From: Halomicrobium urmianum
Lineage (GTDB): Archaea; Halobacteriota; Halobacteria; Halobacteriales; Haloarculaceae
Reading direction: 5' to 3'
Assembly (NCBI RefSeq): GCF_020217425.1
Contig: NZ_CP084090.1
Location: 2,294,001-2,358,000 of the forward strand
Length of the DNA stretch: 64,000 bases
Shown here: positions 58,363-64,000 of the stretch, piece after piece
Position numbering within the stretch: the first letter of the stretch is position 1
Layout of the letters: every line of letters begins with the position of its first letter
Notes under the pieces: generated by a model
Database searches by the model: none
What the model was told of the DNA's origin: nothing
The model's input: the letters and a program-made list of their open reading frames with translations, nothing else
Translations under genes and position numbers: made by a program

Positions 58363-59625
58363 GTGAGATCACTGACGCGACGAGGAGCGCTGAAAATCGC
58401 AGGCGGCGTTGCTGCGACGGCGTCGCTCCCGGCAGGAACTGCCGTGGCCACCGGTTCGGGCGACTCGTCCACCGACTACCCGGCGGAGATCGAACGAATG
58501 CTCCCGCAGCCGAAGGCAGTCGAGTATCACGGATCCCACGTTACGCTGGGACCGCGTGCCCTTATCGCGACGACGGCGAGCGCCGACGAACCCGCGGTCT
58601 CCCAGCTCGCGTCACACCTGTCCGAGTGGGGGGTCACGGAGGGAGAGGATCCGGTACAGGTCGTCTCGCCCGAGGGAATACGCGACACGCCATTCCTGTT
58701 CGTCGTCGACACGCGCGACGCGACGCCGGCCGTCGACGAGTATCTCGACGAGCTGGACGCGACTATCTCGTGGGGCGACCTGGGTGACGAGGGGTACACG
58801 CTCCAGATTGGTAGGGGGGCCGACGACCAGAAAACCGCCGTGCTGAGCGGGTCGACGTGGGACGGCATCTACAACGCCGTCCAGACGCTCCGCCAGATCG
58901 TGACCGCGGAGAGCAACCAGCACTGGGTCCCGACAGTCTCCGTCGACGACTATCCCGCTCCGTATCCGTATCGTGGCGTCATCGAGGGGTTCTATGGACC
59001 GCCCTGGTCACACGAACAGCGCCTCAGCATCATCGACTCTCTCGGCGATTACAAGCTGAACACGTACATCTACGCGCCGAAAGACGACCCCTACCATCGA
59101 GCCAAGTGGCGCGAACCGTATCCGTCCGACCGAAAGCGGGAGATCGGTGAACTGGCCGATGCCGCGGACAGGAACCACGTCGAGTTCATGTTCTCGATCA
59201 GCCCCGGCGTCGACATCGCCTACTCGAGCGACGAGGACTTTCAGGCGCTCGTGGCGAAGACGGAGGAGATCCGGGACGTCGGCGCGGACACCTTCGGGTT
59301 GCTCCTCGACGACATCGTCACTGAGCTAGAAGGCCAGGACGCCGAGCGCTTCGATTCGCCCGCCGAAGCCCAGGCGTACCTCATCAACCGCTACGACGAC
59401 CACCTCAAGTCTAAGGACTCCGGTCACTGGCTGTACGTCGTCCCGACCGACTACTACCAGGCGGGTAGCACCGATTACCGCGAAACCCTCGCGAATCAGG
59501 TCCACGACGACGTCATCATGGGCTGGACGGGCGTTGGCGTCACCGACCCCGAGATCACGAACGAGGAAGCGGCGCGCGTGCGGGACGTGTTCGACCACGA
59601 GTTACTGACGTGGGGGCTCTGTTGA
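58363..59625 (+). pseudogene. GH84 beta-N-acetylglucosaminidase, truncated at its 3' end by a MITE
   Basis: The 420-aa open frame starts with a Tat leader (MRSLTRRGALKIAGGVAATA). It then has a GH20b-like N-terminal domain and the GH84 barrel (YRGVIEGFYGPPWSHEQRL at about residue 205, YIYAPKDDPYHRAKWREPYP at about 242). The catalytic Asp pair is D316-D317 in FGLLLDDIV. The stop is supplied by the inserted repeat (codon 421), within the barrel, so the end of the barrel and any later domains are lost. The family removes N-acetylglucosamine from glycans; this copy is probably inactive or unstable. Confidence 0.82.
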
Positions 59626-59698
59626 AATCCTATTATACAGACACTATTCTCGGTGAAATAGCCGATACAGTGATCACTCTGAGGATTTCAACAGGGCC
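59615..59698. mobile_element. 84-bp MITE-like element with 17-bp terminal inverted repeats
   Basis: GGCTCTGTTGAAATCCT at the left end and its complement at the right (59682-59698) match at 16 of 17 positions. The 50-base interior is AT-rich and non-coding. No target-site duplication is seen. Left and right flanks belong to two unrelated truncated genes. The ends resemble those of haloarchaeal IS5-like elements, as far as I recall; the parent IS is not in the window. Confidence 0.8.
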
Positions 59699-60937
59699 GT
59701 CGGTTTCGAACTGACGGACGCCGAGCGAACAGCCTACCAGCGCCTGACGGACGCCGTCGTCGACGCGGTCTCCGACATCGAACGGCGACATCAGAACCGG
59801 CTCTACGACCTCAGCGGAAGCTTCGCCCGGAAGCTCCAGGTCATCAGAAACAACGCCGACGGACCGACGCCAGCCATCGCGGACTACTTCGAGTACACGC
59901 AAGAGCGACGCGAACTGATCGCCGATGCCGTTGCCCGACAGGCCGTGACGCTCGAGCTCCTGCGAGAGAGCGTCGCAAGCGACCGGAAGGCGATCGTCTT
60001 CCAGGAGCGGATCGAACAACTTGAACGGATGGTCGCACCCAGGGAGACCCGAGGCCGTAATAATCGTACCGGTGAGCTCGCCGACACCGATAACGACCGT
60101 GCTCAGCTCTACGAACAGTATCCCGAACTCGAGGAGATAGACGAGCAGCTGGAGGACCTCTTTTTCACGAGTAGTTATCAACCGGTGATGTACCACTCTG
60201 GCCACCGAAGCGAGGCCTGGAACGACTTCGTGATAGAGTGGTTCCGGGACGAGGGATTCGCCAACGTCATGCTGAGTGTGAAGGCACTCATCGAGGGCGT
60301 GGACGTTCCTAGCGCCGATGTGGGGATCGTCCGAGTCTCGTCCGGGAGCGTCAGGCAACGCATCCAGACGCTCGGGCGTGTACTACGAACGGGGAATGAC
60401 CCGGATCGCAAGGCAGAGATGTACGTCCTGTATGCCCGGGACACCGTCGACGAGAACATCTTCGAGCGGTACGACTGGCGGCAGGAGCTTTCACAGGCAG
60501 AGGTCCGACACCTGACGTGGGAGACCGGCGAAGATAGCATCGACGGCGAACTCAGACCGGCGACCGACGATGAGATTCCGGATCCACCGACGGAAACGAC
60601 CGTGCCAGACCCAGAGGAGCTAGAGCGAGGCGACGCGTACGACGGACCGAACGATGGGTTCGAGTTCAGCGTCGACGCCGACGGCAAACCGTTCAAAGAG
60701 ACCCAGGACGGACGGCAGTACATCGAGGCCGATGAGTATCGTGACGTCGCCACCTACGTCCAGCGGCAGAAGGGCGGCGGCACCGTCGTGGTGAACGAGG
60801 CCAATCACGCAGTGACGTATCTCGGTGACGAGTGGGTGTTCGTAGACGTCGTCAGTGACCCCAGCGACATCGAGTACAGGGAACAAGACACGAGGGGGCT
60901 GACTGAGGAAGCCGATTTTGGGATCGACGACCTGTAA
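59699..60937 (+). pseudogene. C-terminal part of an SF2 helicase, 5' end lost at the MITE
   Basis: The frame is open from the first base after the MITE. It has helicase domain 2: AIVFQERIEQLERM, PVMYHSGHRSEAWNDFVIEW (motif IV region), VKALIEGVDVPSADVGI (motif V) and RQRIQTLGRVLRTG (motif VI). A ~150-residue acidic C-terminal extension follows. No helicase domain 1 or Walker motif is present. It may be the counterpart of the helicase whose N-terminal half starts at 62951, but it lies upstream of it, so a simple split gene is excluded. Confidence 0.75.
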
Positions 60938-60966: not shown

Positions 60967-62811
60967 TCACATGGTGTCTGCGACGTACGTCTGGATCTGC
61001 TCCTCGACGAGTTGTGCGGGCTCTTTGCCCGCCTCCTCGGCAAGTTCCGAAAGGACAGCGGCTATCGGTCCCTCGAGCGTGATCGAAAACTCTCGCTGCA
61101 CGTCTGCGATATCGAGCCGCGCACGAAGTGCGTCTTCGACGAACGCGCCAGTAGAGGCGTACTCGCTGTCGTCCCCGCAGAGAGCGTCGACGAGCGTCCG
61201 CTGGTTGGCAGTGAGATCGAGCGGTACCGGTGCAGTCTCGGGAGCAGACACCTGCGTAACGGTCGGCTCGCTTCCGTCGACTGCGCGCTTGAGATGCTCG
61301 CTAACTGCCTCGACAACAAATCCCTCGTCGCGACGGCTGGCTAGCGCTGCGACGACTGCCGAGACTTCGACGGTGTCAGCTGTCGCAGTCGGCTCGCCGT
61401 TTGTTTTAGCTGTCTCGCTCGGTTCATCTAGCTCTCCGGAATCCGAAGAACCGGCTGTAGCAGCGACGTTTTGGCGCCCGTCACCATTCTCGTTCTCGTC
61501 TCTGTTCACGTCTACTCTCGAGCCCGATTGCCGTCGTCCGAGGTCCTGATCGGACTGACTGTCGTGACGTCGGGCGAAATTCCAGAACGACTCGTGCTGC
61601 TCGCGCAGCGGACTGAGCGTCTCCGTGGACAGGTACTGAATAGCGTCGCCCGTCCGGTCGGCGGTGACGAGGTTCCAGAACTCGTCTGTGTCGAATGCAA
61701 CCTGACCACCTGACATACCGACGAGGAGAAACGGCCAGGGCTGATCGGGGCCTTCGACTCTGATGCCGTCATCGTACTGTGCCCAGAGCGTCGTTGTGGC
61801 GTTCCAGTCGCGGACGTGCTCGTCGACGGTGAACGCGTACGTATCGCTGTCGGACGACGCGAGAACGATATCTCCCGGACTGACGTGACTCCAGTGTTCT
61901 TCTTGCTCTTCCGGTAGCCCCCACGCGTAACCGACATCGCGTCCGATCCCGTCGATTGCGTCGAGGTCGCGCGTCTGGTTCGCGACGGTCGCCTCGATCG
62001 CGTTCGCGATCGTCTCGTTGGTCGCCTCGATCACGAGAATGCCCGGAGGTGTCTCGTCGTCATCGGCATCGCCGTCCACAAGTTCCGGGAGAAATTCCTT
62101 CGCGATCTCCGCCCACTCGTGGCTGTGGTCCCTGACGCCGGTGATGAGCCCGTGATACGACTTCGATTCGACCATCTGGTCGTTCACCTCGAAGAACGTC
62201 CGCATCACCGTTTCCGGGTCGTGTTCCTCCCTAAGGAAGTACACCGGTTCTGGCATACCGCCGGCGGAATCCGTCGCCGCCTTCCCGGCCCGGACCACGA
62301 ACTTCCACATCCCGTGCTGGCGGTCGCTCACGCTCGACCCCTGTGGCATCTCGGAACTCGGGGTGGGGCCGTGCTCTCTCAGGTGCCGAACGTTCTCCGT
62401 CGCTCCGCGGTGTTCTGGCGGGTCAACTTCGGCGAAGTTGTACTGGTTCGTACTCGGCTCGATCCCCGCTTCCTCCAACGCCAGTAAGTACGAGCCGAAG
62501 ACGGACTCGTACGTCTCGAAGCTATAGGTGCTGAACTCGGTGATCTGCTCACCAGTCGGGGACTGTCCGAGTTCGGACGCGACGCGCTCGAGTTCCGCGA
62601 CAAGTTCTTCGGGACTGGCGTCCGGGGGATCACGATCGCCAGTGACACCGGCGGCTTCGAGCGCATTATACCACGTACCGAACTCGGCAATATAGTCCCG
62701 GATACCGCCGTCACACTCCGCCGCCACGGTCGATATATTGGGCGGTGTGTCGCTGTCAGCAGACACCGCTCGCAGATCCTCGAGAAGTTGTCCCCTGTCG
62801 ATTGCCTCCAT
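60967..62811 (-). CDS. Modular DNA-binding/PUA-like protein, candidate defence gene
   Basis: The 614-aa product has two tandem homing-endonuclease-associated repeats at residues ~5-56 and ~66-118 (second: LVAELERVASELGQSPTGEQ ... FGSYLLALEEAGIEP). A region with REHGPTPSSEMPQGS follows. At ~250-390 there is a PUA/EVE-like domain (YAWGLPEEQEEHWSHVSPGD, IVLASS, then PWPFLLVGM). After a Ser/Glu-rich linker come two ribbon-helix-helix-like units (VPLDLTANQRTLVDALCG; FSITLEGPIAAVLSELAEEA). PUA-like domains of this kind recognise modified bases in restriction proteins. No nuclease motif is seen. It is divergent from a helicase gene. Confidence 0.7.
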   Translation of the reverse strand: MEAIDRGQLLEDLRAVSADSDTPPNISTVAAECDGGIRDYIAEFGTWYNALEAAGVTGDRDPPDASPEELVAELERVASELGQSPTGEQITEFSTYSFETYESVFGSYLLALEEAGIEPSTNQYNFAEVDPPEHRGATENVRHLREHGPTPSSEMPQGSSVSDRQHGMWKFVVRAGKAATDSAGGMPEPVYFLREEHDPETVMRTFFEVNDQMVESKSYHGLITGVRDHSHEWAEIAKEFLPELVDGDADDDETPPGILVIEATNETIANAIEATVANQTRDLDAIDGIGRDVGYAWGLPEEQEEHWSHVSPGDIVLASSDSDTYAFTVDEHVRDWNATTTLWAQYDDGIRVEGPDQPWPFLLVGMSGGQVAFDTDEFWNLVTADRTGDAIQYLSTETLSPLREQHESFWNFARRHDSQSDQDLGRRQSGSRVDVNRDENENGDGRQNVAATAGSSDSGELDEPSETAKTNGEPTATADTVEVSAVVAALASRRDEGFVVEAVSEHLKRAVDGSEPTVTQVSAPETAPVPLDLTANQRTLVDALCGDDSEYASTGAFVEDALRARLDIADVQREFSITLEGPIAAVLSELAEEAGKEPAQLVEEQIQTYVADTM

Positions 62812-62950
62812 GTAGGGGCTATCTGGGTAGAGTACTGTATCGGTTTTGCTACTGATACTGGCCGGGAAGGCTTTTGCACTCCACTCGTACTTTCATCGTA
62901 TCGACGACGCGAGCGCTCGTCTATGACAGTGCTCCGGTCTCCAGCCACCA

Positions 62951-64000
62951 ATGCCAGGCAACGACCCTCTCCAGTCGCGTGACGACAAGACGACCCCCGC
63001 AGAACAGTTCGAGAGCGATCGTCTCGACCGAGAGTCGATCGACGCGACGAAGTACCCCGCTCAGGTCGATCGCGCTGCCGTCGACGTACTACGCGGGATC
63101 GCCGTCGGCGAGACCGACGACATGACCGATTTCGGCGGAACGATCGACCAGTGGAACTTCGACGAGGCGACTGGTCCGTTCTACGTCGAGGGCCTCACCG
63201 AGATCGCGGGTTCTGACTCCCCGCTAGCCGCGAACCTCCGAGAGTACGACGAGGAGACGATCGGCGAGCTCGCCTTCCAGCTCAACTCCCTTCGGCACAC
63301 GCTCGATACGACCGGCGAGCCGATGGACATCGATCGCGCACTCGAGGCACTCCTGGAGAAAAATGCCACGAGTGCGATCGACCGCAGCATCAAGTCTGGT
63401 GGTAACCAGGGCGCCGGACTGCGGTCGCTCAGAGACACTGACTCAGTGAGTGACCTTGCAGCTCGGCTGTTCTCGGACCCCCGCGTCGGCGCATACGCAC
63501 AGGCACTGATCGATCTGCTCCCTGAGTCTGACGTCGGCCGAGCGGAGTTGATCACTCAGCTTGACGAAGCACAAATGACGACGCCGCTGTGGCCCCACCA
63601 GCGCGAGGCCCTCCAGCGCTGGCACGCCAATGGCCAGCGGGGGCACGTCGACATGGCGACCGCGACCGGGAAAACCGTCCTTGGACTGGCCGCCGTCGCC
63701 CTCCGATACGGTTCGCTCCACCCGACGGATACAAACGAAGCTGAATCACTCGAGCGATCGTCGAACGTCCCGCCAGTTCCGGAGCAGCCGCGTGTCTTGA
63801 TCGTCGCCGGATCGGACCTCCTGCTCGACCAGTGGCGGTCCGAACTTGACGAGCACCTGGACATCCCTGAAGACCGTACGACGCCGGTTAGCGAGGATGA
63901 TCACCGGACGATCGAACTTGAGTGGGGAGACATCGAGTTCCGGACCGCACAGGGCCTCCTCAGGACGCCCGAGTTCAGCCGATACGATCTTGTCATCCTC
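62951..64000 (+). CDS. SF2 helicase, N-terminal part, continuing past the window
   Basis: The frame from the ATG at 62951 is open for 350 codons to the window end. An N-terminal helical domain (~residues 1-205) precedes helicase domain 1. The Q-like motif is LWPHQREALQRWHANGQRGH, Walker A is MATATGKTVLGLAAVAL, motif Ia region is RVLIVAGSDLLLDQWRSEL, and the window stops at DLVIL, just before the expected DE of Walker B. Domain 2 lies outside. It is divergent from the modular gene with 139 bases between, which suggests shared control. Defence helicases of this class translocate on DNA. Confidence 0.85.
   Translation, partial: MPGNDPLQSRDDKTTPAEQFESDRLDRESIDATKYPAQVDRAAVDVLRGIAVGETDDMTDFGGTIDQWNFDEATGPFYVEGLTEIAGSDSPLAANLREYDEETIGELAFQLNSLRHTLDTTGEPMDIDRALEALLEKNATSAIDRSIKSGGNQGAGLRSLRDTDSVSDLAARLFSDPRVGAYAQALIDLLPESDVGRAELITQLDEAQMTTPLWPHQREALQRWHANGQRGHVDMATATGKTVLGLAAVALRYGSLHPTDTNEAESLERSSNVPPVPEQPRVLIVAGSDLLLDQWRSELDEHLDIPEDRTTPVSEDDHRTIELEWGDIEFRTAQGLLRTPEFSRYDLVIL

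Follow-up and report, generated by a model that had tools for sequence, protein, structure and literature searches.

A putative DNA-reading protein encoded opposite an SF2 helicase in a haloarchaeal cassette that has decayed in Halomicrobium urmianum

What role is played by a protein that joins HNH-associated repeats to a predicted reader of modified bases and is encoded back to back with a large helicase? The question is raised by the last 3 kb of a 64,000-nucleotide stretch of the Halomicrobium urmianum genome (the window; NZ_CP084090.1, positions 2,294,001–2,358,000), for which an earlier note had suggested an undescribed defence module. The gene layout described there is correct. An intact ORF of 614 codons, which we call P, occupies 60967–62811 on the minus strand and is separated by 139 bp (62812–62950) from a divergent helicase gene, H, that begins at 62951 on the plus strand. 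We give an even chance to the reading developed below, in which P reads DNA as one subunit of a split modification-directed restriction or defence complex, encoded by a haloarchaeal cassette, h2-P-H, where h2 is a second helicase.

All parts of P are encoded on the minus strand. The protein opens with two HNH_repeat (PF18780) units (residues ~6–55 and 66–118; 62458–62796), which the earlier note had recognized and which Pfam finds with E=4e-22; both are helical in the AF2 model. A winged-helix-like segment follows (residues ~139–247; 62071–62397). The model does not confirm its fold, pLDDT being below 50 for residues 121–197. This segment also exists as stand-alone proteins of ~155–170 residues with a Cys-rich motif at the end; copies at L010:1378–1971, L013:1375–1836 and L015:1429–1935 have a terminal motif similar to CxFCGExVxKGGLPxH. 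Next come the EVE/PUA-like predicted modified-base reader (residues ~257–416; 61564–62043), identified by hhalign and Foldseek, a disordered acidic linker, and a triple ribbon-helix-helix (RHH)-like tail (residues ~478–614; 60970–61380), identified from the model, a TraY match and homology to the helicase tail. Pfam finds no AAA domain in P. The AF2 model as a whole is of modest confidence (mean pLDDT 60). In a Foldseek comparison of this model with the PDB, an ASCH domain of the PUA superfamily ranks first (E=0.02, with no match below 0.001), the tandem RHH of TraY second (E=0.034, probability 0.99) and a YTH domain fifth (E=0.19). These are the folds that would be expected for P.

H is an SF2 helicase with ResIII/DEAD and Helicase_C domains. 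Only its 5′ part lies in the window (62951–64000); the gene extends as far as what would be position 66223, and ends there in a triple-RHH tail of its own. ResIII is matched in the window part (4.7e-6) and Helicase_C in the second frame (4.9e-10). H resembles XPB/Dnd-type helicases and matches the PADLOC PbeA models weakly (1.6e-18). Its first 452 residues are 75% identical to an intact helicase of 1064 residues in genome G396, and comparison with this protein reveals single-base deletions at ~64287, ~65169 and ~65477. The large helicase proposed to face P is thus there, but as a gene frameshifted three times. On the other side of P, and convergent with it, lies the 3′ half of the second SF2 helicase, h2 (59690–60937, plus strand). 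It keeps Helicase_C (E=5e-9), has lost the ATP-binding 5′ half, and is 74% identical over 330 residues to residues 223–552 of the G396 protein L160:6676–8340, which has the same place and orientation. The ORF at 59945–60937 belongs to h2, whose open frame reaches back to ~59690; on its 5′ side h2 abuts unrelated sequence. A GH84-like gene, read from sequence at 58363–59700, appears to stop early at 59625 and abuts the truncated h2, so that the boundary between the two is likely to be a recombination junction.

P is therefore the sole intact gene of h2-P-H in this genome. Because H is frameshifted and h2 truncated, the module is unlikely to provide working defence in this genome, and P is either a remnant or functions together with different proteins. 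Some 4–8 kb past the end of the window a McrB-like gene (L003:8571–11915; 68571–71915 in window numbering) appears to be split by an IS transposase gene into an EVE-like front half (71025–71906) and an AAA half (68571–70049), with McrC beyond. Both halves match one 1104-residue protein in L112, and this McrB/McrC is separate from P. The frameshifts of H could alternatively be assembly errors, in which case the P–H pair would be intact and active in the window strain, whatever its mechanism. The three deletions do fall within 1.2 kb, and the remaining indels relative to the G396 helicase are all in frame. No deletion, however, falls in a run of more than a few identical bases, and the clear truncation of h2 and the split of the nearby McrB point to an island in decay; we regard assembly error as unlikely.

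P carries a predicted reader domain of the PUA superfamily, as the earlier note supposed. There is no significant Pfam EVE match in P itself; the assignment comes from profile–profile comparison by hhalign with the N-terminal domains of McrB (98.6%, E=1e-15) and with EVE-HNH-type proteins (99.2%, E=9e-20). The best PDB matches of the McrB N-terminal profile are the McrB chains 6p0f and 6ut5, with EVE proteins next, and one relative matches Pfam EVE itself (4.8e-5). Residues ~257–416 match both the N-terminal domain of McrB-like AAA proteins, whose genes are followed by one of ~450 codons in the position of McrC, and the front half of ~335-residue proteins that end in HNH. EVE/YTH-like domains confer specificity on modification-dependent restriction systems; in T. 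gammatolerans, the YTH-like domain of McrB binds m6A (PMC7641849). By this kinship the domain in P may bind a modified base as well; counted against the proposal is that Trp297 of P is not kept in the G396 ortholog. A haloarchaeal family of ~330–530-residue proteins combining an EVE/PUA-like domain with HNH (L074, L076, L077, L078, L079 and L067) probably consists of uncharacterised modification-dependent endonucleases.

The kinship of P to nucleases extends beyond this domain. The closest of its long relatives, in G120 (596 residues) and G211 (599 residues), are co-linear with it over ~420 residues and end in an HNH_2 nuclease, the nearest solved structures of which are TagI and EcoKMcrA. Other HNH-bearing relatives occur in G419 and on a Halobacterium plasmid. 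Whereas the relatives in G120, G211, G419 and GSL-19 have HNH, it is absent from P and its orthologs in G365 and G396, and in P a triple-RHH tail stands in place of the C-terminal nuclease. The HNH form occurs more widely and is thus presumably the ancestral one; P would then descend from an EVE/PUA-HNH endonuclease composed of two HNH_repeats, a winged-helix-like segment, an EVE-like domain and HNH. This qualifies the earlier view that P belongs to no named family. No PADLOC-DB 2.0 model matches it (E≤1e-5), profile searches do not place it in a housekeeping family, and we found no published description of the P–H cassette architecture in a literature search that took in few subscription journals and preprints; the protein nevertheless has a clear parent in the HNH-bearing EVE-type proteins, the one on the Halobacterium plasmid being annotated ‘HNH endonuclease’ in the public record.

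The surroundings of these relatives are restriction- or defence-like. Neighbours include type I RM-like genes, a PLD-SNF2 helicase on one side with a IIG/DrmMI-like methylase on the other, and SMC/Mre11-like genes. The suggestion of a defence module is consistent with these loci and with an EVE-like domain common to P and McrB, although in the window genome the module has decayed. The viral contigs searched contain no P-type proteins, and the plasmids searched only HNH-type or partial relatives. Genes that resemble type IV CRISPR Csf2/Csf3 by eye occur near P-type and HNH-type relatives (L160:2810–6219 and L161:3–260); the two in L160 have no Pfam or NCBIfam match.

The tail that replaces the nuclease is where P and H meet in sequence. 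In the AF2 model the P tail forms three strand-helix-helix (βαα) units with pLDDT mostly 48–79, and Pfam RHH_1 gives a weak, sub-threshold match (E=0.031); we have moderate confidence in this prediction of RHH units. The earlier note had seen two such units in P; the model has three, and the helicase tail has them too. Indeed, P and H are homologous in their C-terminal ~137 residues: hhalign aligns 127 columns at 97.9% and E=4.8e-13, the best of 200 random 140-residue windows from the same loci reaching E=0.011. Structure prediction for the helicase tail was unusable (pLDDT 44). A profile of the reader tail searched against 391 genomes independently recovers the helicase tail of G194, where by inspection a helicase, an RHH protein and an HNH_repeat protein form one operon. 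It also recovers small proteins in which a triple-RHH tail follows a BRCT-like front, such as L175:7510–8352 and L177:7539–8222, beside methylase-like and PLD/SNF2-helicase-like genes. In G245 and G040, again by inspection, a TFIIB-repeat protein with three RHH-like units is divergent from an RHH-tailed helicase that is followed by AddB and AddA; the G245/G040 tails match poorly in hhalign, and not all pairwise tail comparisons are significant. The six RHH-tailed helicases form one clade (support 100/99), in which the placement of the window helicase with those of G396 and G365 rests on its first 445 residues and the direct comparison with G396.

The RHH fold requires two strands. Three units per chain would leave one unpaired in cis, and we infer from this that the tails of P and H pair with each other. 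The tail strands, in which each protein has 0–1 Lys/Arg among 18 positions, are almost devoid of basic residues, unlike the DNA-contacting strands of RHH proteins (PMC10853773). This bears on whether the chief role of P is transcriptional regulation, in which case its RHH tail, either by itself or together with that of the helicase, would bind the divergent promoter and autoregulate the cassette in the manner of CopG/Arc-type RHH antitoxins. RHH folds are classical operator binders and the two genes diverge across a short intergenic region. Yet the tail strands are short of the usual basic residues, no operator or inverted repeat is common to the intergenic regions of the three genomes with a P–H pair (window, G365 and G396), and such a role leaves the EVE-like domain, the HNH_repeats and the nuclease kinship unexplained. 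We therefore consider it improbable.

The pairing of P with H is conserved where P-type proteins, HNH-less and with an RHH tail, are found. These come from three genomes: that of the window, G396, and G365 (the Halorientalis sp. LUM.68 MAG), the last being the single additional locus recovered when genome contigs were scanned with an alignment of the P-type pair. P is 46% identical to its ortholog in G396 and 45% to that in G365 over the full length (43–46% pairwise across the three), and the architecture is kept. In all three P is divergent from H at a distance of 114–176 bp, and H is intact in G365 and G396. In G396, moreover, h2 is longer and the h2-P-H triad has the same order and orientation as in the window. 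The association with a helicase put forward in the earlier note thus recurs in two other genera.

Genes for an AddAB-like nuclease (PD-(D/E)XK/UvrD AddB/AddA) immediately follow H in G365, as they do its sister helicases in G245 and G040. They are not a constant neighbour; G396 has a different set, further off. The AddAB-like pair of the window genome (equivalent of 74030–79481) was considered as part of the cassette and rejected, since its AddB has no match to that of G365 and the similarity in AddA is no more than ~26%; the G365-type AddB is absent from the window genome. Helicases adjoined by AddAB-like genes in three relatives, with H itself resembling XPB/Dnd-type enzymes, could also be a cassette for DNA repair or recombination rather than defence. 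Against this stand the patchy distribution (three P-type genomes in the samples searched, and a helicase family in 47 of 391 genomes), the predicted reader of modified bases, an island that contains IS elements and restriction genes, and the decay of the partners of P in the window genome. A repair function is accordingly no likelier, in our judgement, than a regulatory one.

The HNH_repeats are linked to the H family more broadly. Among the 47 loci with a called H relative, which are not all independent, they occur in the same ORF in 16 (2 to 6 units) and in a neighbouring gene in 12, as raw counts. The link between HNH_repeat readers and this helicase is hence recurrent. Tail matching is perhaps recurrent as well: in L106:6797–12273 (G361) a helicase and a divergent HNH_repeat protein share a helix-hairpin-helix (HhH) tail (47% over 62 residues, E=2e-10), and a domain common to helicase and neighbour is also present in L103, L104 and L113. 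Proteins of 2.7–3.3 thousand residues (L112:107–9907, and L138 and L140–L143) fuse the SF2 helicase to two HNH_repeats; that of L112 additionally contains DUF5797 and DUF4011, together with an SF1 helicase and a nuclease domain, MTES_1575. We rejected the term ‘ARMADA-like’ for the DUF4011-SF1-MTES_1575 fusions because ARMADA is defined otherwise (PMC12458937). At L109:3806–8569 a 1587-residue protein with 13 HNH_repeats adjoins a helicase of the H family.

Taken as a split complex, the cassette would operate as follows. P would select DNA by sequence through its HNH_repeats and by a modified base through its EVE-like pocket, dock on H by pairing of the matching triple-RHH tails, and load H, which would then translocate on the DNA or unwind it. 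Cutting would occur in trans by other nucleases, for example those encoded by the AddAB-like genes downstream of H. This reading is favoured by the co-linear HNH relatives, the McrB-homologous reader, the conserved P–H pair and the homology of the tails, whose strands are almost without Lys/Arg. It is further favoured by the HNH_repeats fused or adjacent to the helicase, the clade of RHH-tailed helicases, the AddB/AddA genes behind H in G365, G245 and G040, and the relatives of P in restriction-type loci. The low pLDDT of the models for P and the helicase tail, the frameshifts of H in the window and the occurrence of the P–H pair in three genomes count against it. Docking of P on H and an antiviral function are both predictions from sequence. 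That P instead acts as a protective or dominant-negative reader, protecting host sites that are modified or specified by the repeats against H or a related EVE-HNH endonuclease, would suit a protein that has every reader part of the endonuclease without the nuclease and is intact where H is broken, but is the least probable of the alternatives because P is always found with H, the common tail suggests partnership, and no cognate HNH form occurs in the same loci.

If P is the reader of a split complex, a plausible route leads from a single-chain modification-dependent endonuclease to the reader of a motor-driven complex, in which the nuclease is lost and a tail in common with the helicase is acquired. 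The findings also connect HNH_repeat, an uncharacterised domain, with a single helicase family throughout the haloarchaea, and the P–H pairs of G396 and the Halorientalis MAG are partners on which docking can be tested. More tentatively, and with the balance somewhat against it, matching tails may constitute a docking code in haloarchaeal defence loci, in which an adjacent helicase motor and reader share a C-terminal adaptor (triple RHH in the window clade, HhH in the G361 clade). HNH_repeat-array, EVE-like and TFIIB-like readers could then be swapped on one motor, and former nucleases such as P recruited to it. Under such a code, the tails alone could be enough to tell which parts of an unknown archaeal defence system belong together.

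Effector-associated domains reportedly follow a comparable principle, the same small adaptor being found on proteins of one conflict operon, for which homotypic interaction has been proposed. The adaptors of P and H differ in having an RHH or HhH fold and in their restriction-like helicase context in haloarchaea. DndE and TraY likewise bring tandem RHH folds into complexes that target DNA and include a motor or an ATPase (PMC10853773), whereas the tails of P and H have three units rather than two, are poor in basic strand residues and occur on both partners. PbeA/Dnd-type SF2 helicases and the BRIGADE, ARMADA and Dpd systems (PADLOC; PMC12458937) are approached through the PbeA match of H, and some distant H relatives lie near a TGT/DpdA-like gene, identified from sequence reading only; the P–H cassette has none of the defining genes of these systems.

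The closest likenesses are to modification-dependent restriction. With the EVE-HNH endonucleases (VcaM4I; PMC7897488) and the SRA-HNH enzyme TagI, P has a PUA-superfamily reader in common, and its HNH-bearing relatives have the same order of reader and HNH. Unlike these enzymes, P is without HNH and adds two HNH_repeats, a winged-helix-like segment, a triple-RHH tail and a helicase partner. McrBC systems whose McrB has an EVE/YTH-like N-terminal domain, of the T. gammatolerans type (PMC7641849), possess a homologous reader and couple it to an NTP-driven motor. In the P–H cassette this motor is a separate SF2 helicase instead of a fused AAA+ GTPase, and McrC is missing. The cassette would thus work like a modification-dependent restriction system that dispenses with both HNH and AAA/McrC.
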